From positions 739,113 through 803,112 of the forward strand of contig JAAOOA010000087.1 of assembly GCA_012861695.1 (NCBI GenBank): DNA of 64,000 nucleotides, given 5' to 3'. Both the position numbers and the translations under genes were made by a program. Each line of letters opens with the position of its first letter. Position 1 is the stretch's first letter. Shown one piece after another: positions 241-52,805 of this stretch. This DNA comes from Trematomus loennbergii. Its lineage: Eukaryota; Chordata; Actinopteri; Perciformes; Nototheniidae. Under the pieces are notes generated by a model. The model saw only the letters and a list, made by a program, of their open reading frames with translations, did not search any database and had not been told where the DNA came from.

Positions 241-249
241 GTCGGCATG

Positions 250-6170: not shown

Positions 6171-6172
6171 TC

Positions 6173-6275
6173 AAACACTGAAACACAAAACACTGAAAAC
6201 ACTGCAACACAAAAACACAGAAACACAGAAACACAGAAACACAAACACACTGAAACACATAAACACTGAAACAGC
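6173..6275 (-). repeat. Remnant of the central satellite
   Basis: About 100 bp of AAACACTG/AAACACAG units, the same as the satellite at 45046-46845. In this copy nearly all of the central satellite and the palindrome centre are missing. Confidence 0.75.
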
Positions 6276-6445
6276 CCTGCTATATACTATGACCATTCTT
6301 TACTTATTTATAATATGGTTCAAATGGAGTAATTTGAGTTGTCTGATGCACTTGATACAATTTTACTTTTTTAAAATACTGATGTGTTTATTCAAAACCA
6401 TTTCAACACACAATGTCATGACTTTTTCAAGATCTTTTTGTCAAA

Positions 6446-6740
6446 CTATACTATGACTTGACTAATGTTACAGAATGTTTCGGAAAATGAAGATTCCAGG
6501 ACCACTTTAAATGTTTCGTTTACAATCGTTTCCCAATGACCCCGGAATAGTACTGCCAGAATGAACGATATCCAAAATGTCTTCTAGTTTACAAACTTCA
6601 GCCATTCTGTTTACACGGGGATCACTACTCATTCTGTTTTCAATCGTCATCAACAACACACTTATTAAACAGGTATTGACTGCATTCTGATAAATATATA
6701 CAGATTGTTTTCCATAGTAGTTATCCCTTTTTTTTATTTT
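6446..6740 (-). pseudogene. X3, unrecognised element gene, broken (copy A)
   Basis: It matches X3 of copy B (47027-47338), with the stop at the same place. It carries one extra C in the run near 6540, which shifts the frame, and the ATG before the Gly-Asn-Tyr-Tyr start is lost. The poly(A) signal region downstream of the stop on the minus strand (TTTATTCAAAACC on the plus strand near 6390) is kept. Confidence 0.6.
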
Positions 6741-6810
6741 ACTTTAAAGAAAAGTCAAAGTATTGGAAAAAATAAAATAAAAATCCCTGGCTTCAATCAA
6801 CCGCTGGTTA

Positions 6811-7254
6811 TTAGTCTTCTTCTCCATCCAGCTCGGCATGGATCTTTTCAAGTCTCTCCTTGAGGCGTCTGCAGTTTTTGAGATTGTGCAGAAAAGCCTC
6901 CGAAGCGCCTTGGATCCTCCATTCAGCCGTGTAAATGTTTTTATCATTAAGACTCTGGTCAATCACAGTAATGAAGTCGGCGAGCCAAAGTCTTTTCATT
7001 AACGCGTTGTAATTGTTTCTGAAGAAATATTCTGGAATGTCATTCAGACAATCGTGTTGCCTCTGTGCCTCTCGACATCCATTGCAGATTTCTTCTCTGT
7101 ACCGATGCAGCACCCTCTCCAGAATATCAACCAACTCCGATTTCACTATGTTCAGAAACAGAGACGTATTGGCCCCCGGAGTAACATCAGCAGCAGTAGT
7201 ACTGCAATATGTGGGTGTCCACAATGGTGGTGACGATAGTAGTCCAGGAGTTTG
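6811..7254 (-). CDS. X5, Cys/His-cluster protein, last exon (copy A only)
   Basis: An acceptor GAATATACAG precedes an exon that reads 147 codons to a stop at 6811. The open frame continues upstream only through pyrimidine-rich intron-like sequence, so I take the acceptor as the 5' limit. About residue 52 there is a C-x2-C-x6-H-x-C cluster, likely zinc-binding. The rest is charged and helical, with an acidic Glu/Asp tail. It lies between X3 and X2 on the same strand. The same acceptor sequence occurs in copy B (40096; inverted near 50403), but there it leads into intron sequence before X4. I do not recognise the family; an accessory gene of the parent element is possible. Confidence 0.5.
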   Translation of the reverse strand, partial: QTPGLLSSPPLWTPTYCSTTAADVTPGANTSLFLNIVKSELVDILERVLHRYREEICNGCREAQRQHDCLNDIPEYFFRNNYNALMKRLWLADFITVIDQSLNDKNIYTAEWRIQGASEAFLHNLKNCRRLKERLEKIHAELDGEED

Positions 7255-7263
7255 CTGTATATT

Positions 7264-7370
7264 CAAAAATATAATGGAGAGAAAAAAATATATATATATA
7301 TATATCACAGTATGTTGAAAAATATGAAAAAAAGTAATGTTGTGTTAAAATAATATGAAAGAAAAAGTAC
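7264..7370 (-). repeat. Segment duplicated from the X4 upstream intron
   Basis: It matches about 50410-50510: AT-rich sequence with a TATATATA run and a GTAATGTTGTGTTAAAATA stretch. It provides the polypyrimidine tract and acceptor used by X5. Confidence 0.5.
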
Positions 7371-8085
7371 TGTTTTGGAAATCTTAGACCTAGTCAATAC
7401 TCAGGAGATATTACAATCAGAATGATCAATCAATAAAATGGTGGAAACAGAGTTGTCTTTCTGGATCTTTATTTGAAGCTTCAAATAAGGCACAGGTCTT
7501 ACGGAGTACAGAGTATTCTGAAAGAGTACTCTGAGAGAACAGAGTACAGAGAGAGAATTGCGCATAGTTTTATAGCATCTTTGTCAGTCCACAGTTCAAC
7601 AATAACTCGTGACCTGTCACTCTGGGGGGGCTGGATGGGCAGATAAGCTAAAGCCCACATTCCAGAGGAACAGAAGCCACACATGGGCAAGGTAGTAAAT
7701 CAGGAACTTAGTAAAACAGGAACTGGGTAAAGACAGATGGAAGTGTTGAAACTCTCACCCCCAATGTGTTAAGGCCAGGTGAAATGAGGACAGCAGGAAG
7801 TCATAGAGAGGTCAAAACAGATATAACTAAGGAATCAGGAACTCATTGCAAGACAGTGAACAAACACAGGAACTTGGATGGAGACACTTCTTCACTTTTG
7901 CTTACGACCCTGTCTGACCCCCAGACACCCTTAAGGCTAGTCATGTGTTGAACAGAGGGCATGAATTAAAATACCTCCTCACGGGACAACTGCATAGCAT
8001 TTTACCATATTAGGTAACACATAAAGTTAGTTTGCACATCATATAAAGTTTATAAGTATACACTGTTATAAAGTTTTCCACTACA
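7371..8085 (-). mobile_element. Solo LTR, 715 bp, minus orientation
   Basis: On the minus strand it begins TGTAGTGG and ends in CCAAAACA, so it has TG...CA ends. GTAC is duplicated at 7367-7370 and 8086-8089. A TATAAAA lies at about 7568-7574 (minus) and an AATAAA at 7468-7473 (minus) about 100 bp downstream, the usual U3-R-U5 order. No internal retroelement sequence is beside it, so it is a solo LTR. Ty3-type or endogenous-retrovirus origin cannot be told apart here. Confidence 0.7.
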
Positions 8086-8089
8086 GTAC

Positions 8090-8540
8090 TTAACTTTCTA
8101 CCAGTTGTAAAGTTGTCATACATAAAACTGTATCAAAACGGTAAGTGAAAGACAACGGGGGGAAAAATAGAAGTGTTAAAATCACCAACTTCCCTTTTAG
8201 AGTCACAGTCTTTAAGAAAATACATTTGTATTACAAAATAATTGACATTCTACCAGTTGCCAAATGTTCCTACAAAAGTGTATCAACAAAAGTATCTTGG
8301 TAGCTGAAAATAACTAGAATATCAGAGAAAACCTACATTATTTAATGTGTTTTTTAGAAATAAAAACAGGGTATTAAAGAAACCCCCATTCCCTTACAAA
8401 GTACTTCATATTATACCCCTTTGTTAAGTGTTGCATACATAAAAGTGTATCTAAAAAGTATCTTGGTAACACATGAAAAGAGAAAAAAGTCATAATCTGC
8501 CTTGTGTCAGTGAATAAGTGTTAAAATCACAAACTTATAG
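8090..8540. repeat. Three diverged modules of about 170 bp
   Basis: Repeated landmarks are GTGTTAAAATCAC, a TTTTAGAG...ACAGTCTTTAAGAAAA segment, TACAAAGTACTT, and GTGTATC...AAAGTATCTTGGTA. Copy B has the matching but shorter array at 47340-47840. Confidence 0.6.
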
Positions 8541-8835
8541 ATAAGCTAGAGGCTATTTTAGATTTGTCAATTAGAGTTAAAGGGCTAAATAACATTTTCA
8601 AACTGCTGTTCATAGTTACTGGATACATAACGAGCCTCATCATTATCTCGATTTTCTACTTCCATTTTTATTTAACAGTGAAACGTCTTATTTTAGTACA
8701 GTCTAGTCAGAGGAGTTAATACTATTACTATATATGAAAGCAAAAATAAAACACATTTTCATTTTGTTATGGTTGTTTAATTGAAAAACACACCATTCGC
8801 CACATCTTCAGAAAGACATATTACATTTGACCAAG

Positions 8836-9180
8836 TTAATGTCGTAGTGCATACAAGGTAATAGACTTAACGATTTGCACTGCTGCTTCTCTCCGCGTTT
8901 CATTTACAGTGATCGGTTTATCGTTCAATTCACATTGCCCAACTAGATGTTTAGGGGTCTCTTGGAAGTAAATGAATGCATTTTTTATATCAGATAAGTG
9001 CATTAACATCACTTGCAAATTCTCTATCCTTTCACCCGCAACGATTATAATCTGCTTTGCTTCTTCTTCGGTTTCACCATTATTAGCTCTGAATGTAATC
9101 CTTTCTGGGGCTTCTTGTGCTTCTTGTGGTCTGTTGAATACCTGGCATAGGATTTGTTTAGCTGTAAGGACGGGTACCAT
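8836..9180 (-). CDS. X2, unrecognised 114-residue element protein (copy A right)
   Basis: This is the inverted partner of 4490-4834 and encodes the same 114 residues. It starts at 9180 and is followed on the minus strand by an ATTAAA near 8780. The divergent neighbour X1 begins about 580 bp to the right on the plus strand, with the shared terminal-like motif at 9270-9330 between them. It is charged, without membrane segments or known motifs. Keeping an intact copy in each arm while the surrounding arm has gained indels argues for recent conversion or for function; the sequence alone cannot decide. Confidence 0.5.
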   Translation of the reverse strand: MVPVLTAKQILCQVFNRPQEAQEAPERITFRANNGETEEEAKQIIIVAGERIENLQVMLMHLSDIKNAFIYFQETPKHLVGQCELNDKPITVNETRREAAVQIVKSITLYALRH

Positions 9181-9269
9181 ATAATTGTCTTCAAAAGCTG
9201 GAAATTCTTACAAGTTCCCCCTCCTCAAAGTTCATTCCCGTAGCACCTTTCCCCCACTGATGCTAGTGA

Positions 9270-9330
9270 CCCCCCTTTGTATGCTAATTACCCCTTTGTT
9301 CGAGGCGTTATCACATGTAGGTGTGTTCAG
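9270..9330 (+). promoter_or_regulatory. Terminus-like motif between X2 and X1
   Basis: This is the inverted partner of 4345-4400. It contains TATGCTAATTA and a CCCCTTTGTTCGAGGCG stretch. Confidence 0.4.
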
Positions 9331-9761
9331 TTAAACACTGAGATTTTCAATATACTACTCTACAAAATGATTTTTTCATATTCTTTTGACAAACTATACT
9401 TGACTTTTTTACGGAAAATCATGACACACTTTAATGTGACTTATTCTTAATTTTACCATACTAAAGTAAGACTTGAAAATACTATATCGTTTTCTAGTTT
9501 TTTATATTATACATCCTTATTTATGTTAGTGTGCTGAGAAAACACAATAAGCAATAGCGTTTTAACAAGCAGTTTAAACTGTCTGTGTCAGTTTTACTTA
9601 TCTCCATATTAAGTGATTATATAATATGACAGTGATCATTTCTATGTTTATTCATTGCAAATACTTAGTTACTTACCACTTGAACTGTTTAGCTCTTCAA
9701 GGTTAACTGACCTAATATATACACTTTTTTGTAGTATTGTCACCACGTTCTTAAGAATTAT

Positions 9762-10061
9762 ATGGACGAGTTGGCAGCTGCCATGGCTGGACTGTCAATC
9801 AAAAGTTACCAGTTATCAAGCGATGGTATGGACAACTTAACAGCTGACTTTGCTAGACTTACTATGAGGAGTCAGCAGGTAACAGATGAGTGTGTGAATG
9901 AAATAACAGCTGCCTTCAGAGGACTCTCCACTAATGCACAGCAGCTTCCTGTTAGTGCCTGCACTGAGAATCCTCAAATACAGAGACAAGTCACTTTGTC
10001 CACGCTCCCTGAGACCCTCAAGCCCACTAATGCCCAGGTGAATAATATTGACTTGTGTTAG
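9762..10061 (+). CDS. X1, 22-residue-repeat protein (copy A right)
   Basis: A 99-codon open frame with three 22-residue repeats (1-22, 23-44, 45-66). A donor after base 10037 (CAG|GTGAAT, phase 0) and an acceptor CACCAG before 10191 define a second exon at 10191-10300, which ends at another donor-like CAG|GTATGT. In this copy exon 2 reads a basic Lys/Arg/Pro/Gly-rich tail. One base difference in a run of A puts copy B in a different frame with a Glu/Asp-rich then Trp-Trp tail, so the true frame is open. The intron before exon 1 (about 9589-9732) and the intron after it (10038-10190) resemble each other, which points to exon-intron duplication. Unknown function. Confidence 0.5.
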   Translation: MDELAAAMAGLSIKSYQLSSDGMDNLTADFARLTMRSQQVTDECVNEITAAFRGLSTNAQQLPVSACTENPQIQRQVTLSTLPETLKPTNAQVNNIDLC

Positions 10062-10300
10062 TTTTACTTAAACTTACTTACAATAAGTGATCATAATATG
10101 ACAGTGATATCTTCTATGTTTATGCATTGCAAATACTTAATTATTTTTTGTTAGTTCTTTAAGGTTATATAACCATATGTTTGTCACCAGGTAACAAGTG
10201 ATCATTTGGAAAAATGTATCCCAGCCTTTGAAAAAACTCAAAGGGAGAGGACAGTGAAGGCCATGAAGCCAAAACCAAGACGTGGTGGAGTGCTGCGCAG

Positions 10301-11024
10301 GTATGTTCTCTAACAGCAACACTCTATTAAACATGTCTTTATTGACTACAGCTTAAGTTCATCCTATCATAAGGCTAAAAAGTATCTTAGTAACAAAAAC
10401 AAAAGCAAAAAACATTAATGTTAACAACGCCTCAAAGGGCGGACTCCTGAGTTCCATGGCACTTGGACTATTTACATCATCCAGGGCTCAACACCAGTAA
10501 ATACGCCTCTCTTTATCCGCTCTCCAAGCCTCCAAGGGCGGACTCCTGAGGTCCGTAATGCCCCCCTAACATGACACTTAAACTATTTACATCATCTAGG
10601 GAAGCACACCAGTAAATGTAGCCTCATGTAACTTCATATAGGGATTCTTTAATAGTTGTGTGAAGTAATTAAACAATAAGGGGGTATTAAGATCTTTAAA
10701 TTATAATTTTCCTCTCAAAGAGACTTCGTTGTACACACACACACACAAACAAAACAACATTAAATAATGACATGATATTATAGTGATAACACATAATGTG
10801 TAGAAAGAGATCTCCTGTATGGGTTGATTGCGCGTTGATCTGTTGGTAAATGCTCATCTATCATTTTCAACCAAGCAGCATGAGGTCAAATTTAATAAGT
10901 AATAGTTTGTCACGATTTTACGGGGAAAAAGTCACATCTTAAAGACAGCTTGAACTGGATAGATGGTTAGTCTTTTTTCAAACATACCATATGTTCTGCA
11001 TGTTAGTATATTTGGCCAAATCGG
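10301..11024. other. Right-arm spacer, no gene seen
   Basis: It corresponds to 1873-2586 inverted: two CTCAGGAGTCCGCCCTT-like segments, a CA run at 10734-10745 and AT-rich sequence. The X4 poly(A) signal reads on the minus strand near 10340. Confidence 0.5.
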
Positions 11025-11125
11025 TTAGGCCCCACTGCCCCACTCCCTCAATAGGGAAGTCACGCTTTGGGAAGAGGTGTTTAATTTCACAGATCTGACT
11101 TGATTGCTGTTGTGATGGCTGTAAG
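11025..11125 (-). pseudogene. X4, 3' part only (copy A right)
   Basis: This is the inverted partner of the end of 1640-1872, including its stop. Everything upstream is replaced by the Harbinger transposon, so this copy cannot be expressed from its own start. Confidence 0.6.
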
Positions 11126-11421
11126 TAAGGCGCCGTTTACACGAGGAGAAAACGGCTTGTATCTGCATAGTTTCGCGTGCGTATAGCCCTATTATTTAGA
11201 CGAGGCCGATAGAAACTGACCACACAAACGATAACGGGTCCCAAGGTGGATAGATTTGCAAACGAAACGCTCTGGGGGGTCAACCGAGTCCGTTTAATCG
11301 CCTCTATACGAATATTGCCTGAAAAAATAACGACAGCCACGCCTCTTCGCACCTCTTCCCACCTCTCCCCACCTCTCCCCCGCCTCATTGCTGATTTGTT
11401 TCTACAACAACAACAACAAGA

Positions 11422-38206: not shown

Positions 38207-38213
38207 TACGAAA
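38207..38213 (+). repeat. Target-site duplication, left copy
   Basis: TACGAAA (maximal form), repeated at 52799-52805. If the element is taken to begin AGTAGTG, the duplication is ACGAA (38208-38212). Block 2 has TACAAAA once at this place. Confidence 0.85.
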
Positions 38214-38312
38214 GTAGTGTTACCAATCCCGCTTCAATCTCATTAGTATGCATAAAAAAGTGACAGGTCACACCTTCTAAGTCCCGCCCCCTAATTAAGT
38301 TTATGACATCCT

Positions 38313-38369
38313 CCCTTTTGATATGCTAATGAGCCCCTTTGATCGAGGTGTTATCGCGTACAGGTGTGA
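38313..38369 (+). promoter_or_regulatory. Terminal copy of the TATGCTAAT/CCCCTTTG motif
   Basis: It is about 80% identical by hand count to 42129-42183 (inverted) in the same arm and to 4345-4400 in copy A. Confidence 0.4.
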
Positions 38370-38371
38370 CA

Positions 38372-38612
38372 TCCTCACCGGTAGCCCCCACCCCCCTCAG
38401 CCCACCCCCCTCCCCCTCACATACAGGTGCTACATCCTCTCAGGTAGCCCCCCCTTCTCAGCCCCCACCCCGCTCAGCCCCCACCCTCTCAACCCACCCC
38501 TCCTCCCCCCTTACAGCAGGTTTCACATCCGCCCTCTCAGCCCCCACCTCTCTCAGCCCCCACCTACCGCAACCCACCCCCTCCTCACCCCCTCCTGTCC
38601 GGTCAGCAGGGC
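38372..38612 (+). repeat. CT-rich minisatellite, left arm of B
   Basis: The same as 1-240. The 100-codon proline/serine frames here are by-products. Confidence 0.75.
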
Positions 38613-38639
38613 TGTTACAGTTTAAATCTTACGGACAAA

Positions 38640-40189
38640 ATTAGATATGATTCGCTATTAAACAAACTAATTATAGTAGATTAATTAACTATTCAAACGT
38701 GTACAGTAATTTACAATAACACGGGAATAATAAAACGGGGGCGCTCTCCCTCCTCTCATGACAACACGCCAGTATCATGCAGCTCGCGGGTCCAATAGTG
38801 AGTGACTCGATAGTAAAACTAAAAAACATAGTTATAACTAGTTTAGGTAGTTTGAGAGGTAATTAAAATAGCTGCGTGTGATATCTGAAGAGTGTGTTTT
38901 GTTCCGCTCAACGCATACAGAGATGCATGGCGAATAGTCCGCAGCACCGGTTCTCCCGTCAGCAGCAGCACAGCGTCTCTCCCGTCACGTTACTAGCGTT
39001 TATGTCCATGCACATCAGCCCATACAGGACATCTTCTGTCGGTCACACACTATTCTTGTATGTCACATAAGTGGTGCAAATGATACGGTATTGCGCTAAA
39101 GGGGGTGTCATTTGGCCGGAGAGATTTCCCTCCACACACACACACACGCACACACAAGTCTCTCTGGAGAGGGTAACAATAGTTTAAAGATCTTACTGAC
39201 CATGGGGTATTTTGGTTTTTTCTTTATGTTTAATTACATCACCCTTAATAAAATAATCCTTATATGAAGTTATATGAGATTAGAAATAGCTGTAGGTTAG
39301 GAGGAAAGAGAAGATTTTTTTTTATGTCGCCCCCACCACCTCCTCAGCCCCCACCCCCTCTCAACCCCCTCCTCCTCATCCCCCTCCTGTCCGGTCAGCG
39401 GGGCCATTACAGTTTAAATCTTACGGACAAAATTAGATATGACTCGATATTAAAAAACTAATGGACAGTCTCCTGAGACATATGGTGGGGGACTCGTTTG
39501 GGGGGTGTACACATAAGTGATGCAACTTTAGATACACTTTTGAAGTAAGCACCACTCTACAACTGGTAGAAAGTTAAGTACTTTGTATGGAATTGGGTTT
39601 TCTTTAGAGCTGTTTTCAGTGAGACAATGCAGTTTCTGATCATTTCAAGTTTCAAGTTTCAAGGATTTATGGCATATGCCCATTAGCTACAGTGTAGATA
39701 TGTCAATGAAAAACATAGGTCACAGGCTCCTCCAACAGTGCACATAAAACAGATAAAATACTGCAATTTGTGCGTAATTCTCTCACAAAGGAACTGTAAG
39801 ATACACGTTTATGTATGGAAAACTATATAACTTGGTAAAATATTCATTCATTTGTAGTGAATTGAGTTTTCTTCAAGAATAAAACTCTAAATGGAGAGTT
39901 AGTGATTCGATGAAACAATGCAGTTTTGATAACTTGACTTGACTAACATTACTTTTTTTAAATATATGTTTTTTAGATGCTTTACTTTTGATTTCTTTCA
40001 TATTATTTTAACACAACATTACTTTTTTCATATTTTTCAACATACTGTGATATATATATATATTTTTTCTCTCCATTATATTTTTGAATATACAGTGATT
40101 TGTACCAAAATACAACATGCAACTATTACATTATACAATATTATGGCTTTTTGCGATATTTTCAACACAATATACTTTCTTTTTTGTAG
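38640..40189. other. Left arm spacer of B with subterminal modules
   Basis: It contains the region shared with the Harbinger-like MITE (38640-39100), a second CT-rich patch (39330-39390), modules at about 39508-39640 and 39770-39900, and AT-rich intron-like sequence before X4. Confidence 0.5.
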
Positions 40190-40365
40190 GGCTTCAGGAT
40201 ATTGGGCATGTCATGCGTAAAACTGGTGTCATCTTTCCTGAAACTGATGTGCTGTCCGTTTTACAAACAAGTTATCTTTCTGCTTCTTCACCCTCTGAAT
40301 TTTCCTCCCCCGTCCCTCTTCCTTCAGCCATCACAACAGCAATCAAGTCAGATCTGAGAAATTAA
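40190..40365 (+). CDS. X4 exon, copy B left
   Basis: After TTTTTTGTAG the exon reads about 58 codons ending in a Lys-Ser-Asp-Leu-Arg-Asn tail. The AATAAA near 41109 is the likely poly(A) signal. In the middle it is Ser/Pro-rich. Its partner in the other arm (50132-50307) encodes the same residues. The C-terminal frame differs from copy A after a 2-nt indel. No known domain was recognised, and the upstream exon and start codon were not identified. Confidence 0.4.
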
Positions 40366-41391
40366 ACACCTCTTCCCAAAGCGTGACTTCCCTATTGAGG
40401 GAGGGGGGGCAGTGGGGCCTAACCCTATTTGGCCAAATATACTAACATGCAGAACATATGGTATGTTTGAAAAAAGACTAACCATCTATCCAGTTCAAGC
40501 TGTCTTTAAGATGTGACTTTTTCCCCGTAAAATCGTGACAAACTATTACTTATTAAATTTGACCTCATGCTGCTTGGTTGAAAATGATAGATGAGCATTT
40601 AGCAACAGATCAACGCGCAATCAACCCATACAGGAGATCTCTTTTCTACACATTATGTGTTATCACTATAATATCATGTCATTATTTAATGTTGTTTTGT
40701 TTGTGTGTGTGTGTGTGTACAACGAAGTCTCTTTGAGAGGGAAAATTATAATTTAAAGATCTTAATACCCCCTTATTGTTTAATTACTTCACACAACTAT
40801 TAAAGAATCCCTATATGAAGTTACATGAGGCTACATTTTACGGGTGTGCTTCCTTAGATGATGTAAATAGTTTAAGTGTCATGTTAGGGGGGCATTACGG
40901 ACCTCAGGAGTCCGCCCTTGGAGGCTTGGAGAGCGGATAAAGAGAGGCGTATTTACTGGTGTTGACCCGGGATGATGTAAATAGTCCAAGTGCCATGGAA
41001 CTCAGGAGTCCGCCCTTTGAGGCGTTGTTAACATTAATGTTTTTTGCTTCTGTTTTTGTTACTAAGATACTTTTTAGCCTTATGATAGGATGAACTTAAG
41101 CTGTAGTCAATAAAGACATGTTTAATAGAGTGTTGCTGTTAGAGAACATACCTGCGCAGCACTCCACCACGTCTTGGTTTTGGCTTCATGGCCTTCACTG
41201 TCCTCTCCCTTTTGAGTTTTTTCAAAGGCTAGGATACATTTTTCCAAATGATCACTTGTTACCTGGTGACAAACATATGGTTATATAACCTTAAAGAACT
41301 AACAAAAAATAATTAAGTATTTGCAATGCATAAACATAGAAGATATCACTGTCATATTATGATCACTTATTGTAAGTAAGTTTAAGTAAAA

Positions 41392-41691
41392 CTAACACAA
41401 GTCAATATTATTCACCTGGGCATTAGAGGGCTTGAGGGTCTCAGGGAGCGTGGACAAAGTGACTTGTCTCTGTATTTGAGGATTCTCAGTGCAGGCACTA
41501 ACAGGAAGCTGCTGTGCATTAGTGGAGAGTCCTCTGAAGGCAGCTGTTATTTCATTCACACACTCATCTGTTACCTGCTGACTCCTCATAGTAAGTCTAT
41601 CAAAGTCAGCTGTTAAGTTGTCCATACCATCGCTGGATAACAGGTAACTTTTGATTGACAGTCCAGCCATGGCAGCTGCCAACTCGTCCAT
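41392..41691 (-). CDS. X1, 22-residue-repeat protein, copy B left
   Basis: A 99-codon frame with the three 22-residue repeats. Compared with copy A, residue 16-17 reads Tyr-Leu instead of Tyr-Gln and the second repeat has Asp where A has Ala, in both arms of B. Residue 88-89 reads Pro-Ser here and Pro-Thr in the right arm. Exon 2 is at 41152-41262, with acceptor CACCAG and a closing CAG|GTATGT donor. In B, exon 2 is one base longer than in copy A and stays open in the frame that ends in phase with that donor (acidic middle, Trp-Trp near the end), which favours this frame as the real one. Unknown function. Confidence 0.5.
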   Translation of the reverse strand: MDELAAAMAGLSIKSYLLSSDGMDNLTADFDRLTMRSQQVTDECVNEITAAFRGLSTNAQQLPVSACTENPQIQRQVTLSTLPETLKPSNAQVNNIDLC

Positions 41692-42128
41692 ATAATTCTT
41701 AAGAACGTGGTGACAATACTACAAAAAAGTGTATATATAGGTCAGTTAACCTTGAAGAGCTAAACAGTTCAAGTGGTAAGTAACTAAGTATTTGCAATGA
41801 ATAAACATAGAAATGATCACTGTCATATTATATAATCACTTAATATGGAGATAAGTAAAACTGACACAGACAGTTTAAACTGCTTGTTAAAACGCTATTG
41901 CTTATTGTGTTTTCTCAGCACACTAACATAAATTAAGGATGTATAATATAAAAAACTAGAAAACGATATAGTATTTTCAAGTCTTACTTTAGTATGGTAA
42001 AATTAAGAATAAGTCACATTAAAGTGTGTCATGATTTTCCGTAAAAAAGTCAAGTATAGTTTGTCAAAAGAATATGAAAAAATCATTTTGTAGAGTAGTA
42101 TATTGAAAATCTCAGTGTTTAACTGAAC

Positions 42129-42183
42129 ACACCTACATGTGATAACGCCTCGAACAAAGGGGTAATTAGCATACAAAGGGGGG
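42129..42183 (-). promoter_or_regulatory. Terminus-like motif between X1 and X2, copy B left
   Basis: It equals 4345-4400 of copy A and lies between the divergent genes. Confidence 0.4.
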
Positions 42184-42247
42184 TCACTAGCATCAGTGGG
42201 GGAAAGGTGCTATGGGAATGAACTTTGAGGAGGGGGAACTTCCAGCC

Positions 42248-42367
42248 CCTAAACATCTAGTTGGGCAATGTGAATTGAACGATAAACCGATCACTGTAAA
42301 TGAAACGCGGAGAGAAGCAGCAGTGCAAATCGCTAAGTCTATTACCTTGTATGCACTACGACATTAA
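42248..42367 (+). pseudogene. X2, 5'-truncated, copy B left
   Basis: Only about the last 40 codons remain. A deletion joins the leader (GGAACTTCCAG) to the Pro-Lys-His-Leu-Val segment and removes the ATG. The same junction is in the right arm. Confidence 0.8.
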
Positions 42368-42659
42368 CTTGGTCAAATGTAATATGTCTTTCTGAAGATG
42401 TGGCGAATGGTGTGTTTTTCAATTAAACAACCATAACAAAATGAAAATGTGTTTTATTTTTGCTTTCATATATAGTAATAGTATTAACTCCTCTGACTAG
42501 ACTGTACTAAAATAAGACGTTTCACTGTTAAATAAAAATGGAAGTAGAAAATCGAGATAATGAGGAGGCTCGTTATGTATCCAGTAACTATGAACAGCAG
42601 TTTGAAAATGTTATTTAACCCTTTAACTCTAATTGACAAATCTAAAATAGCCTCTAGCT

Positions 42660-43158
42660 TATCTATAAATTTGTGATTTTAACACTTATTCACTGACACA
42701 AGGCAGATTATGGCTTTTTTCTCTTGCCAAGATACTTTTAGACACACTCTGAGGTATGCAAAACCTTAAAACTAGAAAATGAAGTACATTGTCTGATTAG
42801 ATTTTTTCGTAAAGACTGTTTCTCTAAAAGGCAAGTTTGTGATTTTTAACACTTATTTACTGACACAAGGCAGATTTTTGACTTTTTTCTCTTTTCATGT
42901 GTTACCAAGATACTTTTTAGATACACTTTTTTGTATGCAACACTTAACAAAGGGGTATAATATGAAGTACTTTGTAAGGAATGGGGGTTTCTTTAATACC
43001 CCGTTGTAGAAAGTTAAGTACTTTTTCTGAACAGATTTTCTTTAAGACTGTGACTCTTAAAGACACTCTGGGATTTTAGTAAGACAATCCAGTTTTATGG
43101 AAGTAACTAAAATTATTTTTGTTTTTTCTCCTACAAAGATACTTATAGTTACACTTTA
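42660..43158. repeat. Three diverged modules of about 170 bp, copy B left
   Basis: Each unit has ACACTTATTCACTGACACAAGG or a remnant of it, GATACTTTTTAGATACACTT, and GAAGTAC near the end. Inverted partner at 47340-47840. Confidence 0.6.
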
Positions 43159-43470
43159 GTGGATGCAAAACTTAAAGTAAAATTAAAAATGGGTAACTAC
43201 TATGGAAAACAATCTGTATATATCTATCAGAATGCAGTCAATACCTGTTTAATAAGTGTGTTGTTGATGACGATTGAAAACAGAATGAGTAGTGATCCCC
43301 GTGTAAACAGAATGGTTGAAGTTTGTAAACTAGAAGACATTTTGGATATCGTTCATTCTGGCAGTACTATTCCGGGTCATTGGGAAACGATTGTAAACGA
43401 AACATTTAAAGTGGTACTGGAATCTTCATTTTCCGAAACATTCTGTAACATTAGTCAAGTCATAGTATAG
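43159..43470 (+). CDS. X3, unrecognised element protein, copy B left
   Basis: A 103-codon frame with a perfect AATAAA about 55 bp after its stop (near 43525). An internal Met at codon 11 begins MGNYYG and could be the true start. The sequence is a mix of helices and beta-like stretches with no Cys cluster and no membrane segment. The same protein is encoded at 47027-47338. In copy A it is frameshifted. The stretch before it (CTCCTACAAAG) resembles a splice acceptor, so it may be a last exon. I do not recognise the family. Confidence 0.5.
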   Translation: MDAKLKVKLKMGNYYGKQSVYIYQNAVNTCLISVLLMTIENRMSSDPRVNRMVEVCKLEDILDIVHSGSTIPGHWETIVNETFKVVLESSFSETFCNISQVIV

Positions 43471-43659
43471 TTTGACAAAAAGATCTTGAAAAAGTCATGA
43501 CATTGTGTGTTGAAATGGTTTTGAATAAACACATCAGTATTTAAAAAAGTAAAATTGTATCAAGTGCATCAGACAACTCAAATTACTCCATTTGAACCAT
43601 ATTATAAATAAGTATAGAATGGTCATAGTATATAGCAGGGGTGTTTAATAGATTTCTGT

Positions 43660-44671
43660 GTTCTGTGTTTTGTGTGTCAGTGTTGCAGTGTTTCAGTGTT
43701 TCAGTGTTTCAGTGTTCTGTGTTTCAGTGTTGCAGTGTTTCAGTGTGTGTCAGTGTGTCAGTGTTGCAGTGTTGTAGTGTTTCAGTGTTTTGTATGTCAG
43801 TGTTTCAGTGTTTTCAGTGTTTATGTATTTCAGTGTTTTCAGTGTTTTGTGTTTCAGTGTTTCAGTGTGTTTGTGTTTCAGTGTTTTCAGTGTTTTTGTG
43901 TTTCAGTGTTTCAGTGTGTTTGTGTTTCAGTGTTTCTGTGTTGCAGTGTTGCAGTGTTTCAGTGTTTTCAGTGTTTCTGTGTTTCTGTGTTGCAGTGTTG
44001 CAGTGTTTCAGTGTTTTCAGTGTTTTGTGTTTCAGTGTTTTTTGTGTTTCAGTGTTTCTGTGTTTTTGTGTTGCAGTGTTTCAGTGTTTTCAGTGTTTTG
44101 TGTTTCAGTGTTTCAGTGTTTTGTGTGTCAGTGTGTCAGTGTTTCAGTGTTGCAGTGTTTCAGTGTTTTCAGTGTTTTGTGTTTCAGTGTTTCAGTGTGT
44201 CAGTGTTGCAGTGTTTCAGTGTTGCAGTGTTTCAGTGTTTCAGTGTTTTGTGTTTCAGTGTTTCAGTGTTTTTGTGTTTCAGTGTTTCAGTGTTTTGTGT
44301 TTCTGTGTTTCAGTGTTTTGTGTGTCAGTGTTTCAGTGTGTCAGTGTTTCAGTGTTGCAGTGTTTCAGTGTTTTCAGTGTTTGTGTTTCAGTGTTTCAGT
44401 GTGTCAGTGTTGCAGTGTTTCAGTGTTGCAGTGTTTCAGTGTTTTCAGTGTTTTGTGTTTCAGTGTTTCAGTGTGTCAGTGTTGCAGTGTTTCAGTGTTT
44501 CAGTGTTCTGTGTTTCAGTGTTTTGGGTGTCAGTGTCAGTGTTGCAGTGTTTCAGTGTTTCAGTGTTTATGTGTTTCAGTGTTTTCAGTGTTTTGTGTTT
44601 CAGTGTTTCAGTGTTTTGTGTTTCAGTGTTTCAGTGTTTCAGTGTTTGTGTGTCAGAGTGTCAGTGTTTAC
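43660..44671 (+). repeat. TTTCAGTG satellite, left arm, about 1.0 kb
   Basis: Tandem units TTTCAGTG, TTGCAGTG, TTTTGTG and TGTCAGTG of 7-9 bp. Several frames stay open for 300-360 codons because no unit forms a stop. It is not coding. Confidence 0.95.
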
Positions 44672-44726
44672 AGCCTTTCTTTGCTCTGATCAATCCCACA
44701 GGGATCTCCCCCTGGAAGGAATATAG

Positions 44727-44855
44727 CAGGATGAGAGAAAAACATTAAAAAAACGTATCTTAGAAGTGGCTATAACATTTGATGCAATTCTAAAAGATAG
44801 TCAGATTCCTAAAAAGTTACAAACGGATGATGGAAAAGAATTATTTGTTTTTTGA
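44727..44855 (+). pseudogene. Integrase core fragment at the palindrome centre, left half
   Basis: The reading frame gives about 40 residues between stops, containing LKKRILEVAITFDAIL, then KKLQTDDGKE. The TDDGKE block and the preceding Ile/Leu-rich helix fit the region around the second catalytic Asp of retrovirus-type DDE integrases; the Lys-Lys-Leu-Gln spacing is closest to Polinton/Maverick integrases in my judgement. It stops at TGA at 44853. Upstream (44672-44726) no further integrase is seen. The mirrored copy is at 44859-44987. Confidence 0.6.
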
Positions 44856-44858
44856 AGC

Positions 44859-44987
44859 TTCAAAAACAAATAATTCTTTTCCATCATCCGTTTGTAACTT
44901 TTTAGGAATCTGACTATCTTTTAGAATTGCATCAAATGTTATAGCCACTTCTAAGATACGTTTTTTTAATGTTTTTCTCTCATCCTG
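44859..44987 (-). pseudogene. Integrase core fragment, right half (mirror)
   Basis: This is the same 40 residues on the minus strand. Here the T run at the centre is five instead of six, so the frame continues a few codons across the centre into the other arm before a stop. Confidence 0.6.
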
Positions 44988-45045
44988 CTATATTCCTTCC
45001 AGGGGGAGATCCCTGTGGGATTGATCAGAGCAAAGAAAGGCTGTA

Positions 45046-46845
45046 AACACTGACACTCTGACACACAAAACACTGAAACACTGAAACACTGAAACACAAA
45101 AACACTGAAACACTGAAACACAAAACACTGAAAACACTGAAACACATAAACACTGAAACACTGAAACACTGCAACACTGACACACTGACACCCAAAACAC
45201 TGAAACACAGAACACTGAACACTGAAACACTGCAACACTGACACACTGAAACACTGAAACACAAAACACTGAAAACACTGAAACACTGCAACACTGAAAC
45301 ACTGCAACACTGACACACTGAAACACTGAAACACAAAACACTGAAAACACTGAAACACTGCAACACTGAAACACTGACACACTGAAACACTGACACACAA
45401 AACACAGAAACACAGAAACACAAAACACTGAAACACTGAAACACCAAAAACACTGAAACACTGAAACACAAAACACTGAAAACACTGAAACACTGCAACA
45501 CTGAAACACTGCAACACTGAACACTGAAACACTGAAACACAAAACACTGAAAACACTGAAACACTGCAACACTGAAACACTGAACACTGACACACTGAAA
45601 CACTGAAACACTGAAACACAAAACACTGAAAACACTGAAACACTGCAACACAAAACACAGAAACACTGAAACACAAAAACACTGAAACACTGAAACACAA
45701 AACACTGAAAACACTGAAACACTGCAACACTGCAACACAGAAACACAGAAACACTAACACTGAAACACTGCAACACTGAACACAGAAACACTGAAACACA
45801 AACACTGAAACACTGAAACACAAAAACACTGAAAACACTGAAACACAAACACTGAAACACTGAAACACAAAACACTGAAACACTGAAAAACAAAACACTG
45901 AAAACACTGAAACACTGACAACAAAACACTGAAACACTACAAACACTGCAACACTGAACACTGACACACAAAACACTGAAACACAACATGAAACACTGAA
46001 ACACTGCAACACTGACACTGAAACACTGAAACACAAAACACTGAAACACTGAAACACTGCACACAAACACTGCAACACTACACACTGAAACACTGAACAC
46101 AAAACACTGAAAACACTGAAACACTGCAACACTGAAACACTGACACACTGAAAACACTGACACACAAAACACTGAAAACAGAACACAAAACACTGAAACA
46201 CTGAAACACCAAAAAACACTGAAACACTGAACACAAAAACACTGAAAAACACTGAAACACTAAACACTGAAACACTGAAACACTGACACACTGAAACACT
46301 GAAACACAAAACACTGAAAACACTGAAACACTGCAACACTGAAACACTGACACACTGACACACAAAAACACTGAAACACTGAAACACAAAACACTGAAAA
46401 CACTGAAACACTGCAACACAAAAACACAGAAACACTGAAACACAAAAACACTGAAACACTGAAACACAAAACACTGAAAACACTGAAACACTGCAACACT
46501 GCAACACAGAAACACAGAAACACTGAAAACACTGAAACACTGCAACACTGCAACACAGAAACACTGAAACACAAACACACTGAAACACTGAAACACAAAA
46601 ACACTGAAAACACTGAAACACAAACACACTGAAACACTGAAACACAAAACACTGAAAACACTGAAATACATAAACACTGAAACACTGAAACACTGACATA
46701 CAAAACACTGAAACACTACAACACTGCAACACTGACACACTGACACACAAACACTGAAACACTGCAACACTGAAACACAGAACACTGAAACACTGAAACA
46801 CTGAAACACTGCAACACTGACACACAAAACACAGAACACAGAAAT
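45046..46845 (-). repeat. TTTCAGTG satellite, right arm, about 1.8 kb
   Basis: The same units as 43660-44671 in opposite orientation, but about 0.8 kb longer. A frame of 619 codons without stop is a by-product. Confidence 0.95.
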
Positions 46846-47026
46846 CTATTAAACACCCCTGCTATATACTATGACCATTCTATACTTATTTATAATATGG
46901 TTCAAATGGAGTAATTTGAGTTGTCTGATGCACTTGATACAATTTTACTTTTTTAAATACTGATGTGTTTATTCAAAACCATTTCAACACACAATGTCAT
47001 GACTTTTTCAAGATCTTTTTGTCAAA

Positions 47027-47338
47027 CTATACTATGACTTGACTAATGTTACAGAATGTTTCGGAAAATGAAGATTCCAGTACCACTTTAAATGTTTCGT
47101 TTACAATCGTTTCCCAATGACCCGGAATAGTACTGCCAGAATGAACGATATCCAAAATGTCTTCTAGTTTACAAACTTCAACCATTCTGTTTACACGGGG
47201 ATCACTACTCATTCTGTTTTCAATCGTCATCAACAACACACTTATTAAACAGGTATTGACTGCATTCTGATAGATATATACAGATTGTTTTCCATAGTAG
47301 TTACCCATTTTTAATTTTACTTTAAGTTTTGCATCCAC
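47027..47338 (-). CDS. X3, copy B right
   Basis: This is the mirror of 43159-43470 and encodes the same 103 residues, with the poly(A) signal near 46972 on the minus strand. It lies between the satellite and the module array. The MGNYYG internal start is present here too. Intact copies in both arms of B but a broken one in A suggest either recent palindrome formation or conversion within B. Function unknown. Confidence 0.5.
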   Translation of the reverse strand: MDAKLKVKLKMGNYYGKQSVYIYQNAVNTCLISVLLMTIENRMSSDPRVNRMVEVCKLEDILDIVHSGSTIPGHWETIVNETFKVVLESSFSETFCNISQVIV

Positions 47339-47339
47339 T

Positions 47340-47840
47340 AAAGTGTAACTATAAGTATCTTTGTAGGAGAAAAAACAAAAATAATTTTAGTTACTTCCAT
47401 AAAACTGGATTGTCTTACTAAAATCCCAGAGTGTCTTTAAGAGTCACAGTCTTAAAGAAAATCTGTTCAGAAAAAGTACTTAACTTTCTACAACGGGGTA
47501 TTAAAGAAACCCCCATTCCTTACAAAGTACTTCATATTATACCCCTTTGTTAAGTGTTGCATACAAAAAAGTGTATCTAAAAAGTATCTTGGTAACACAT
47601 GAAAAGAGAAAAAAGTCAAAAATCTGCCTTGTGTCAGTAAATAAGTGTTAAAAATCACAAACTTGCCTTTTAGAGAAACAGTCTTTACGAAAAAATCTAA
47701 TCAGACAATGTACTTCATTTTCTAGTTTTAAGGTTTTGCATACCTCAGAGTGTGTCTAAAAGTATCTTGGCAAGAGAAAAAAGCCATAATCTGCCTTGTG
47801 TCAGTGAATAAGTGTTAAAATCACAAATTTATAGATAAGC
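47340..47840. repeat. Modules, copy B right
   Basis: This is the mirror of 42660-43158; copy A has a longer version at 8090-8540. Confidence 0.6.
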
Positions 47841-48129
47841 TAGAGGCTATTTTAGATTTGTCAATTAGAGTTAAAGGGTTAAATAACATTTTCAAACTGC
47901 TGTTCATAGTTACTGGATACATAACGAGCCTCCTCATTATCTCGATTTTCTACTTCCATTTTTATTTAACAGTGAAACGTCTTATTTTAGTACAGTCTAG
48001 TCAGAGGAGTTAATACTATTACTATATATGAAAGCAAAAATAAAACACATTTTCATTTTGTTATGGTTGTTTAATTGAAAAACACACCATTCGCCACATC
48101 TTCAGAAAGACATATTACATTTGACCAAG

Positions 48130-48249
48130 TTAATGTCGTAGTGCATACAAGGTAATAGACTTAGCGATTTGCACTGCTGCTTCTCTCCGCGTTTCATTTA
48201 CAGTGATCGGTTTATCGTTCAATTCACATTGCCCAACTAGATGTTTAGG
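48130..48249 (-). pseudogene. X2, 5'-truncated, copy B right
   Basis: This is the mirror of 42248-42367 with the identical deletion junction. Confidence 0.8.
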
Positions 48250-48806
48250 GGCTGGAAGTTCCCCCTCCTCAAAGTTCATTCCCATAGCACCTTTCCCCCA
48301 CTGATGCTAGTGACCCCCCTTTGTATGCTAATTACCCCTTTGTTCGAGGCGTTATCACATGTAGGTGTGTTCAGTTAAACACTGAGATTTTCAATATACT
48401 ACTCTACAAAATGATTTTTTCATATTCTTTTGACAAACTATACTTGACTTTTTTACGGAAAATCATGACACACTTTAATGTGACTTATTCTTAATTTTAC
48501 CATACTAAAGTAAGACTTGAAAATACTATATCGTTTTCTAGTTTTTTATATTATACATCCTTAATTTATGTTAGTGTGCTGAGAAAACACAATAAGCAAT
48601 AGCGTTTTAACAAGCAGTTTAAACTGTCTGTGTCAGTTTTACTTATCTCCATATTAAGTGATTATATAATATGACAGTGATCATTTCTATGTTTATTCAT
48701 TGCAAATACTTAGTTACTTACCACTTGAACTGTTTAGCTCTTCAAGGTTAACTGACCTAATATATACACTTTTTTGTAGTATTGTCACCACGTTCTTAAG
48801 AATTAT

Positions 48807-49106
48807 ATGGACGAGTTGGCAGCTGCCATGGCTGGACTGTCAATCAAAAGTTACCTGTTATCCAGCGATGGTATGGACAACTTAACAGCTGACTTTGATA
48901 GACTTACTATGAGGAGTCAGCAGGTAACAGATGAGTGTGTGAATGAAATAACAGCTGCCTTCAGAGGACTCTCCACTAATGCACAGCAGCTTCCTGTTAG
49001 TGCCTGCACTGAGAATCCTCAAATACAGAGACAAGTCACTTTGTCCACGCTCCCTGAGACCCTCAAGCCCACTAATGCCCAGGTGAATAATATTGACTTG
49101 TGTTAG
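48807..49106 (+). CDS. X1, 22-residue-repeat protein, copy B right
   Basis: This is the mirror of 41392-41691. Donor CAG|GTGAAT lies in phase 0 near the end; exon 2 is 49236-49346. The intron upstream (about 48630-48777) and the intron downstream (49083-49235) share ATATGACAGTGAT and CATTGCAAATACTTA, so they are duplicates. The frame is open upstream to the acceptor TTTTTTGTAG at about 48778, which gives a Tyr-Cys-His-His... extension before the first Met. No domain was recognised; the predicted repeats would form a short helical array. Confidence 0.5.
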   Translation: MDELAAAMAGLSIKSYLLSSDGMDNLTADFDRLTMRSQQVTDECVNEITAAFRGLSTNAQQLPVSACTENPQIQRQVTLSTLPETLKPTNAQVNNIDLC

Positions 49107-49346
49107 TTTTACTTAAACTTACTTACAATAAGTGATCATAATATGACAGTGATATCTTCTATGTTTATGCATTGCAAATACTTAATTATTTTTTGTTAGT
49201 TCTTTAAGGTTATATAACCATATGTTTGTCACCAGGTAACAAGTGATCATTTGGAAAAATGTATCCTAGCCTTTGAAAAAACTCAAAAGGGAGAGGACAG
49301 TGAAGGCCATGAAGCCAAAACCAAGACGTGGTGGAGTGCTGCGCAG

Positions 49347-50131
49347 GTATGTTCTCTAACAGCAACACTCTATTAAACATGTCTTTATTGACTACAGCTT
49401 AAGTTCATCCTATCATAAGGCTAAAAAGTATCTTAGTAACAAAAACAGAAGCAAAAAACATTAATGTTAACAACGCCTCAAAGGGCGGACTCCTGAGTTC
49501 CATGGCACTTGGACTATTTACATCATCCCGGGTCAACACCAGTAAATACGCCTCTCTTTATCCGCTCTCCAAGCCTCCAAGGGCGGACTCCTGAGGTCCG
49601 TAATGCCCCCCTAACATGACACTTAAACTATTTACATCATCTAAGGAAGCACACCCGTAAAATGTAGCCTCATGTAACTTCATATAGGGATTCTTTAATA
49701 GTTGTGTGAAGTAATTAAACAATAAGGGGGTATTAAGATCTTTAAATTATAATTTTCCCTCTCAAAGAGACTTCGTTGTACACACACACACACACAAACA
49801 AAACAACATTAAATAATGACATGATATTATAGTGATAACACATAATGTGTAGAAAAGAGATCTCCTGTATGGGTTGATTGCGCGTTGATCTGTTGCTAAA
49901 TGCTCATCTATCATTTTCAACCAAGCAGCATGAGGTCAAATTTAATAAGTAATAGTTTGTCACGATTTTACGGGGAAAAAGTCACATCTTAAAGACAGCT
50001 TGAACTGGATAGATGGTTAGTCTTTTTTCAAACATACCATATGTTCTGCATGTTAGTATATTTGGCCAAATAGGGTTAGGCCCCACTGCCCCCCTCCCTC
50101 AATAGGGAAGTCACGCTTTGGGAAGAGGTGT
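49347..50131. other. Right arm spacer of B, no gene seen
   Basis: This is the mirror of 40366-41150. It contains the uninterrupted TAA site matching the MITE target at 2584 and a CA run at 49780-49796. Confidence 0.5.
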
Positions 50132-50307
50132 TTAATTTCTCAGATCTGACTTGATTGCTGTTGTGATGGCTGAAGGAAGAGGGACGGGGGAGGAAAATTC
50201 AGAGGGTGAAGAAGCAGAAAGATAACTTGTTTGTAAAACGGACAGCACATCAGTTTCAGGAAAGATGACACCAGTTTTACGCATGACATGCCCAATATCC
50301 TGAAGCC
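50132..50307 (-). CDS. X4 exon, copy B right
   Basis: This is the mirror of 40190-40365: acceptor TTTTTGTAG on the minus strand just above 50307, then about 58 codons with a Ser/Pro-rich middle and the same short tail. Upstream on the minus strand is AT-rich intron-like sequence with a TATATATA run. The same stretch in copy A (7264-7366) instead feeds the X5 exon, so this intron has been used with two different downstream exons in the family. Function and start codon unknown. Confidence 0.4.
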
Positions 50308-50882
50308 CTACAAAAAAGAAAGTATATTGTGTTGAAAATATCGCAAAAAGCCATAATATTGTATAATGTAATAGTTGCATGTTGTATTTTGGTACAAATC
50401 ACTGTATATTCAAAAATATAATGGAGAGAAAAATATATATATATATATCACAGTATGTTGAAAAATATGAAAAAAGTAATGTTGTGTTAAAATAATATGA
50501 AAGAAATCAAAAGTAAAGCATCTAAAAAACATATATTTAAAAAAAGTAATGTTAGTCAAGTCAAGTTATCAAAACTGCATTGTTTCATCGAATCACTAAC
50601 TCTCCATTTAGAGTTTTATTCTTGAAGAAAACTCAATTCACTACAAATGAATGAATATTTTACCAAGTTATATAGTTTTCCATACATAAACGTGTATCTT
50701 ACAGTTCCTTTGTGAGAGAATTACGCACAAATTGCAGTATTTTATCTGTTTTATGTGCACTGTTGGAGGAGCCTGTGACCTATGTTTTTCATTGACATAT
50801 CTACACTGTAGCTAATGGGCATATGCCATAAATCCTTGAAACTTGAAACTTGAAATGATCAGAAACTGCATTGTCTCACTGA

Positions 50883-51391
50883 AAACAGCTCTAAAGAAAA
50901 CCCAATTCCATACAAAGTACTTAACTTTCTACCAGTTGTAGAGTGGTGCTTACTTCAAAAGTGTATCTAAAGTTGCATCACTTATGTGTACACCCCCCAA
51001 ACGAGTCCCCCACCATATGTCTCAGGAGACTGTCCATTAGTTTTGTTTAATATCGAGTCATATCTAATTTTGTCCGTAAGATTTAAACTGTAATGGCCCC
51101 GCTGACCGGACAGGAGGGGGATGAGGAGGAGGGGGTTGAGAGGGGGTGGGGGCTGAGGAGGTGGTGGGGGCGACATAAAAAAAAATCTTCTCTTTCCTCC
51201 TAACCTACAGCTATTTCTAATCTCATATAACTTCATATAAGGATTATTTTATTAAGGGGTGATGTAATTAAACATAAAGAAAAAACCAAAAATACCCCAT
51301 GGTCAGTAAGATCTTTAAACTATTGTTACCCTCTCCAGAGAGACTGTGTGTGCGTGTGTGTGTGTATGTGTGTGGAGGGAAATCTCTCCGG
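50883..51391. repeat. 509-bp tandem duplication, unit 1
   Basis: It runs from the AAACAGCTCTAAAGAAAACC segment to CTCTCCGG. It has one counterpart in the left arm (about 39110-39615). It contains a CT-rich patch and a proline-rich frame that is not a gene. Confidence 0.85.
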
Positions 51392-51900
51392 AAACAGCTC
51401 TAAAGAAAACCCAATTCCATACAAAGTACTTAACTTTCTACCAGTTGTAGAGTGGTGCTTACTTCAAAAGTGTATCTAAAGTTGCATCACTTATGTGTAC
51501 ACCCCCCAAACGAGTCCCCCACCATATGTCTCAGGAGACTGTCCATTAGTTTTGTTTAATATCGAGTCATATCTAATTTTGTCCGTAAGATTTAAACTGT
51601 AATGGCCCCGCTGACCGGACAGGAGGGGGGATGAGGAGGAGGGGGTTGAGAGGGGTGGGGGCTGAGGAGGTGGTGGGGGCGACATAAAAAAAAATCTTCT
51701 CTTTCCTCCTAACCTACAGCTATTTCTAATCTCATATAACTTCATATAAGGATTATTTTATTAAGGGGTGATGTAATTAAACATAAAAGAAAAAAACCAA
51801 GAATACCCCATGGTCAGTAAGATCTTTAAACTATTGTTACCCTCTCCAGAGAGACTTATGTGTGCGTGTGTGTGTGTGTGGAGGGAAATCTCTCCGGCCA
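51392..51900. repeat. 509-bp tandem duplication, unit 2
   Basis: Nearly identical to unit 1, with small indels in the homopolymer and GT runs near 51340 and 51850. Confidence 0.85.
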
Positions 51901-52399
51901 AAATGACATCCCCTTTAGCGCAATACCGTATCATTTGCACCACTTATGTGACATACAAGAATAGTGTGTGACCGACAAAAGATGTCCTGTATGGGCTGAC
52001 TGTGCATGGACATAAACGCTAGTAACGTGACGGGAGAGACGCTGTGCTGCTGCTGACGGGAGAACCGGTGCTGCGGACTATTCGCCATGCATCTCTGTAT
52101 GCGTTGAGCGGAACAAAACACACTCTTCAGATATCACACGCAGCTATTTTAATTACCTCTCAAACTACCTAAACTAGTTATAACTATGTTTTTTAGTTTT
52201 ACTATCGAGTCACTCACTATTGGACCCGCGAGCTGCATGATACTGGCGTGTTGTCATGAGAGGAGGGAGAGCGCCCCCGTTTTATTATTCCCGTGTTATT
52301 GTAAATTACTGTACACGTTTGAATAGTTAATTAATCTACTATAATTAGTTTGTTTAATAGCGAATCATATCTAATTTTGTCCGTAAGATTTAAACTGTA

Positions 52400-52640
52400 A
52401 CAGCCCTGCTGACCGGACAGGAGGGGGGTGAGGAGGGGGGTGGGTTGCGGTAGGTGGGGGCTGAGAGAGGTGGGGGCTGAGAGGGGGATGTGAAACCTGC
52501 TGTAAGGGGGGAGGAGGGGTGGGTTGAGAGGGTGGGGGCTGAGCGGGGGGGGCTGAGAAGGGGGGGCTACCTGAGAGGATGTAGCACCTGTATGTGAGGG
52601 GGAGGGGGGTGGGCTGAGGGGGTGGGGGCTACCGGTGAGG
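52400..52640 (-). repeat. CT-rich minisatellite, right arm of B
   Basis: This is the mirror of 38372-38612. Confidence 0.75.
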
Positions 52641-52798
52641 ATGTCACACCTGTACGCGATAACACCTCGATCAAAGGGGCTCATTAGCATATCAAAAGGG
52701 AGGATGTCATAAACTTAATTAGGGGCGGGACTTAGAAGGTGTGACCTGTCACTTTTTTATGCATACTAATGAGATTGAAGCGGGATTGGTAACACTAC

Positions 52799-52805
52799 TA
52801 CGAAA
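52799..52805 (+). repeat. Target-site duplication, right copy
   Basis: TACGAAA, matching 38207-38213. Confidence 0.85.

Follow-up and report, generated by a model that had tools for sequence, protein, structure and literature searches.

Mavericks, or Polintons, are virus-like transposons that carry their own protein-primed DNA polymerase together with a retrovirus-type integrase. Linear replicons that rely on protein priming give palindromic or hairpin derivatives, as in the yeast linear killer plasmids and the inverted-duplicate incomplete adenovirus genomes; to our knowledge, there has been no direct view of free replicating Maverick DNA. Maverick particles have not been observed so far (PMC8097293). 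Vertebrate Mavericks make 6-bp target duplications, are 12,723-24,620 bp long and end in terminal inverted repeats (TIRs) of 46-1,447 bp, which are expected to serve protein-primed jumping-back (PMC8097293). Their gene modules, one of which is listed from the integrase on, lie between accessory regions and read centre-ward, a toad and a frog being exceptions (PMC8097293). A long palindrome in a fish Polinton is already known from the Chinook salmon, in which a 20-kb insert upstream of gh1, described in 2008, holds a 10-kb palindrome that is part of a Polinton-1 (PMC2584663). No other paper on palindromic Mavericks stood among the matches listed by title and abstract opening.

Like the Chinook insert (PMC2584663), the locus described here is a long and apparently Polinton-related palindrome, in DNA that is presumably from a fish. 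It lies in a 64,000-nucleotide stretch of DNA, the whole of which was analysed and is called the window. We consider that the element is probably a defective, snap-back palindromic derivative of a Maverick/Polinton, integrated as one linear DNA with help in trans.

An inverted repeat that reaches both of its ends

The element and its arms were delimited as follows.

38213..52799, no strand, whole palindromic element, 14,587 bp (self-BLAST and end alignment)
38213..44857, + strand, left arm, 6,645 bp
44858..52799, - strand, right arm, 7,942 bp
43653..44669, + strand, 8-bp minisatellite (TTTCAGTG)n, 1,017 bp
45045..46844, - strand, mirror minisatellite, 1,800 bp
50874..51897 (50874-51391 plus 51383-51897), - strand, 510-bp tandem duplication, right arm only

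The whole element is an inverted repeat reaching both of its ends, and its mirror axis falls at 44857/44858 (AAG|CTT) with zero spacer; from the axis outward, 9 pairs mirror exactly before the symmetry is first broken, where a T/A run differs in length by one base. The axis is also the centre of a HindIII site (44855-44860), one of 17 in the window. An Rfam scan (38000-53000) and a tRNA scan gave no match.

The excess length of the right arm is due mostly to the 510-bp tandem duplication and to the longer minisatellite. The minisatellite arrays of the two arms have eight exact blocks of at least 60 bp in common, all of them collinear, and the offset between arms is nearly constant apart from a single shift of about 0.77 kb. 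Over left-arm positions 39625-43652 the right arm shows a single substitution in 4,027 positions and three one-base indels, and over the outer 0.9 kb the arms show 8 mismatches in 897 positions and 7 indels, several of which are differences in C-run length within a low-complexity stretch. When the two copies of the 510-bp duplication are compared with the left arm, the outer one has 8 differences in 508 positions and the inner one 3 in 509, a divergence that could stem either from recombination of non-identical molecules or from an assembly join.

Such a join is part of the explanation of the palindrome as an artefact of assembly or library. In that case the left half of an ordinary Maverick with terminal repeats of about 1.4 kb would have been sequenced as a fold-back, or joined to itself head to head at HindIII, before being wrongly linked to the right terminus. 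The outer 1,418 bp of the right arm come near the 1,447-bp maximum TIR (PMC8097293), the right arm restarts at arm position 903, thereby leaving the 510-bp duplication, and the greater divergence of the outer duplication copy from the left arm is what a misjoin would give; the near-identity of 39625-43652 to the right arm would also fit, as would a HindIII site lying at the axis. However, the left arm has a substitution of its own (41427), the other state being shared by the right arm and by both arms of a second copy, described below, and it has a 2-bp deletion that is absent from both copies of the right-arm duplication. The minisatellites also differ in length (1,017 vs 1,800 bp), and the second copy is itself a palindrome that extends well past TIR length and has visibly diverged arms. 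We therefore judge an artefact to be unlikely.

Termini, target duplication and empty site

The boundaries of the element, and a related site that lacks it, are given here.

38213..38218, + strand, terminal AGTAGT, the Maverick (AGT)2 end-motif (motif from PMC8097293)
52794..52799, + strand, terminal ACTACT
38207..38212, + strand, left target-duplication copy (T)ACGAA
52800..52804, + strand, right target-duplication copy ACGAA
23223..23851, + strand, paralogous empty target site in the same window

The element runs from AGTAGTGTTACC to GGTAACACTACT, and this 12-mer is present at these two places only in the window. Its first six bases are the commonest end-motif of vertebrate Mavericks, 5'-(AGT)2//(ACT)2-3' (PMC8097293). 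AGTAGT alone has 13 sites on the + strand and 16 on the - strand of the window (29 in total, about 2e-4 per position), so that a chance match exactly at the boundary is unlikely. The 20-bp terminus had no relative in viral contigs. A palindrome that keeps only one end of its parent had been suspected in the sequence-only reading, and the same terminus does stand at both ends, 38213 and 52799.

The left flank reads ...TTGTACGAA and the right flank ACGAAAACTG..., which gives a perfect target duplication of 5 bp (ACGAA). The left side has TACGAA, whereas on the right the T is either absent or common to the element and its flank; had ACTACT|TACGAA lost one T, the duplication would be the 6-bp TACGAA. 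When the flanks are joined with one 5-bp copy, they differ from the empty site by 34 substitutions in 634 positions, the alignment being gap-free over 90 columns around the joint; the match extends 56 bp to the left and about 580 bp to the right. The ACGAA repeat that flanks the element, and the uninterrupted paralogous site, thus point to insertion of the palindrome as a unit.

The insertion point lies within a duplicated TRIM gene cluster. The repeated TRIM-type genes of the window (16260-17033, 24317-25953 and 54222-55276 (-)) have RING, B-box, coiled-coil and PRY-SPRY pieces, and some are apparently broken. This cluster and the type of the Maverick suggest that the host is a fish. The window also has clean tandem repeats of 12 bp (16 copies, 21818-22009) and of 33 bp (6 copies, 27790-27995).

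An integrase-like frame cut by the axis

The sequence-only reading had placed a fragment of an integrase core at the centre of the palindrome.

44727..44852, + strand, integrase-like remnant (second catalytic Asp region), left arm
44862..44987, - strand, mirror copy of the remnant (a homopolymer difference leaves its inner end approximate by 1)

Its position was confirmed, since the zero-spacer axis at 44857/44858 comes just past KKLQTDDGKE. The frame 44727-44852 (+), taken from stop to stop, encodes the 42 residues QDERKTLKKRILEVAITFDAILKDSQIPKKLQTDDGKELFVF, of which the C-terminal ones are ...FDAILKDSQIPKKLQTDDGKELFVF, and it is mirrored on the - strand in a frame that starts at about 44987. 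In integrases of the rve fold, the second catalytic Asp is set in the pattern L-x-T-D-x-G-x-E, and we take KKLQTDDGKE to resemble this region of the retrovirus-type enzymes. With the D,D-35-E spacing, the third catalytic residue would fall on the far side of the axis, and the remnant can therefore not function as an enzyme.

Across all six frames of the window, three rve-type motif patterns matched the remnant and its mirror only, and the same patterns gave 2, 0 and 2 matches in random sequence from a first-order Markov model, 3.84 Mb in length. The chance expectation for the 188 bp adjoining the axis is about 1e-4 or less, for patterns that were picked after the residues had been seen. Queries of 39-42 residues of the remnant had no match in Pfam, PHROGs, NCBIfam or PDB sequences, nor in a set of 5.8 billion proteins, from which one candidate was examined, and an exact 27-bp piece had none in prokaryote genomes. 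As to the retrovirus-type integrase that had been suspected, the motif stood, being unique in the window to the remnant and its mirror, whereas recognition by a profile did not follow: the search against integrase families gave no match, 42 residues being too few for it to decide. The frame thus resembles an integrase by its motif and position, without a profile match.

Scans of viral contigs for the integrase motif in DNA matched 0, 0, 1 and 35 contigs. The single-contig match faced a 597-aa ORF on the opposite strand and was taken as chance. Among the 36 motif loci, 34 had an open frame of more than 80 residues bearing the motif (35 rows). Judged by eye, 31 of these 35 rows were transposase-like proteins of IS3 type, 254-305 residues long and falling into a few kinds, and one was a 751-residue Mu-like protein. 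Because these loci were fetched with the motif, their likeness to the remnant in that motif is circular, and there was no Maverick for comparison among them. A distant DNA search of phages returned 29 weak records (best listed E 0.06); none of the best 20 of the 29 listed reached 80% coverage.

That transposase-like proteins of contigs fetched with the motif also have it would allow the remnant to derive from some other rve-type element, such as Ginger, TDD or an LTR retrotransposon, instead of a Maverick. However, the AGTAGT/ACTACT ends, the length of the element and the layout of its integrase fit Mavericks, and we find another rve-type source scarcely credible. The Polinton/Maverick-class parent proposed in the sequence-only reading gains support from these ends, the short target duplication, the empty site and the inward course of the integrase-like frame.

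Gene content of the arms

Apart from the remnant, the arms carry ORFs with splice-like borders.

48807..49346 (exons 48807-49082 and 49236-49346), + strand, predicted two-exon accessory ORF with GT/AG borders
within 41392-41718, - strand, mirror of exon 1 of the two-exon ORF, left arm
43111..43470, + strand, 119-codon accessory ORF, left arm (mirror 47027-47386, - strand)
40190..40365, + strand, predicted terminal exon of an accessory gene, left arm (related protein P0005)

The predicted terminal exon is mirrored in the right arm. The 119-codon ORF matched no family, seven arm ORFs of this copy had no match in Pfam and two had none in PHROGs; neither the 119- and 107-residue arm ORFs nor an alignment of a copy 2 ORF found a relative in viral contigs. 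No gene for a polymerase, capsid, ATPase or protease was seen in the element, the longest ORF of which has 127 codons when minisatellite frames are set aside, and polymerase, capsid and rve families were absent from the 25 of 40 families listed for the 28 window ORFs scanned. Matches were resolved ORF by ORF for 6 and for 7 of these 28 in two further scans, along with 3 additional arm ORFs. The scan of the 28 also gave a match to DUF6512 (E 9.3e-05), which belongs to none of the ORFs resolved in this way. Since no core gene was seen, the class of the parent rests on the ends, the motif and the layout.

A second palindromic copy and the homogeneity of arms

The window holds a related element at its left edge, called copy 2 here, the element described so far being copy 1.

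1..11129, no strand, second, decayed palindromic copy

Copy 2 has left-arm pieces within 1-5155 and inverted right-arm pieces within 6173-11129, plus insertions; on the left it runs out of the window, it has lost its centre, and on the right it is cut off beside a DDE_Tnp_4 transposon. The latter (11126-12674), presumably of Harbinger type, has two DDE_Tnp_4-matching ORFs, and short pieces related to it are found in the centre of copy 2 (5876-6171).

Short ENA contigs encode relatives of two copy 2 ORFs: for one ORF, P0001-P0004 show 67-88% identity over 23-57% of the query, and for the other, P0005 shows 96% over 54%. Two of the five (P0002 and P0005) join arm segments in other orders, which indicates that related elements exist elsewhere. 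The right arm of copy 2 has an extra accessory ORF (6788-7242, -), one not observed in copy 1, for which four relatives were found in short ENA contigs; it is preceded by a stretch (7255-7364) like the one before the other terminal exon of the arm. Pfam matches of copy 2 ORFs to DUF5717 (E 0.044) and TipAS (E 0.093) were under the cut-off and were disbelieved, and the predicted structure of a copy 2 ORF, with a mean pLDDT of 49.6, was not interpretable.

Three blocks, about 2.36 kb in all, are common to the four arms and were used to compare them. Within copies the arms differ by 1 substitution in 2369 positions and by 6 in 2356, and between copies by 21-28 (0.9-1.2%). Twenty-one of the 28 gap-free variable columns split the copies and seven are private to one arm, while none (0/28) links arms across copies in these blocks. 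The two arms of copy 2 also carry an identical 254-bp segment, in place of which the arms of copy 1 each show the same short junction, so that the indel is symmetric. Homogeneous arms and a symmetric indel are expected if a single template gave rise to both arms not long before the element inserted, and gene conversion inside the palindrome could be an alternative source of the homogeneity.

Gene conversion could likewise have produced this homogeneity if two head-to-head Mavericks had been fused by host recombination or conversion and their junction homogenised. However, the palindrome as a whole has a single target duplication and a single empty site, there is a second palindromic copy, and the 510-bp duplication and the minisatellite difference were not converted away, all of which makes such a fusion very improbable. 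Copy 2 also bears on another explanation, namely a lineage of Mavericks whose terminal repeats are naturally at least 4.5 kb long, and in which the centre of this copy was lost by chromosomal deletion or host repair without any snap-back. Its inverted arms have about 2.4 kb of inner sequence in common (arm positions 2105-4475), with no recognisable core between them, as that lineage would have. A mirror with zero spacer would, however, need both cuts at the same base of two copies, and identical halves in an integrase-like frame are not expected of a random central deletion; we regard this as rather improbable.

Proposed origin and significance

The palindrome, its ends, the short target duplication, the empty site, the two copies and the arm-to-arm homogeneity are direct observations that an origin has to account for, and a snap-back derivative of a Maverick would do so in the following way. 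The class of the parent is inferred from the ends, motif and layout; a protein-primed parent, snap-back priming and help in trans are likewise inferences. While a linear parent was replicating, synthesis from its integrase-side end would have stopped inside the integrase gene, a little beyond the codon for the second catalytic Asp. By folding back, or by a switch to the complementary strand, the new 3' end would then have been extended to the same terminus. The product would have had the integrase-side terminus and the accessory region at both ends, would have lost the remaining integrase, the capsid genes and the polymerase, and would have integrated into a chromosome as one linear DNA. With cis signals at both ends, it could be replicated and integrated by the integrase, and perhaps the polymerase, of an intact Maverick.

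Our data suggest that Maverick-type elements can throw off palindromic defective genomes. It is a tentative and somewhat doubtful extension that palindromic one-ended genomes form a regular mobile class of Maverick, replicated, perhaps packaged and integrated in trans, with their arms re-equalised at each replication; at 14.6 kb the element is within the range of intact ones, so that packaging may perhaps be possible. If such a class were real, chromosomes would hold a fossil record of Mavericks replicating as free linear molecules. A duplication-flanked palindrome with its axis inside an integrase is the footprint expected of extrachromosomal, end-primed replication, and Maverick ends mirrored to zero spacer would be a genome-wide signature that is simple to count in fish assemblies.

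Comparison with known systems

The locus has one terminus at both ends and an exact mirror down to zero spacer, as a snap-back derivative should; it also has symmetric indels and arms that are more alike than the copies are, which gene conversion gives as well. The killer-plasmid and adenovirus derivatives also keep one terminus, mirror it and depend on a helper for replication, but they are extrachromosomal or packaged, whereas the present element is chromosomal and has a target duplication.

Like an intact vertebrate Maverick, the element has AGTAGT/ACTACT ends and a short target duplication, and its 14,587 bp are within the 12.7-24.6 kb range; as in most vertebrate Mavericks, the integrase-like frame runs inward from the terminus, behind an accessory-type region (PMC8097293). 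Its target duplication is a perfect 5 bp, or 6 bp if a T was lost, as against 6 bp in Mavericks (PMC8097293). In contrast to intact Mavericks, its inverted arms measure 6.6-7.9 kb and are mirrored to the axis, where TIRs of 46-1,447 bp would be expected, and it has no intact core gene, a 42-residue remnant of an integrase and no trace of the other end (PMC8097293). Given that the ends, length and layout fit while the TIR length and core genes do not, the element is better described as a Maverick derivative than as a Maverick.

The Chinook palindrome is mentioned in passing in the part of that paper available to us, without axis, ends, duplication, empty site, second copy or mechanism (PMC2584663). 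Relative to that part of the report, what is new here is a variant of which the axis, the ends, the target duplication, the empty site and a second copy are described.
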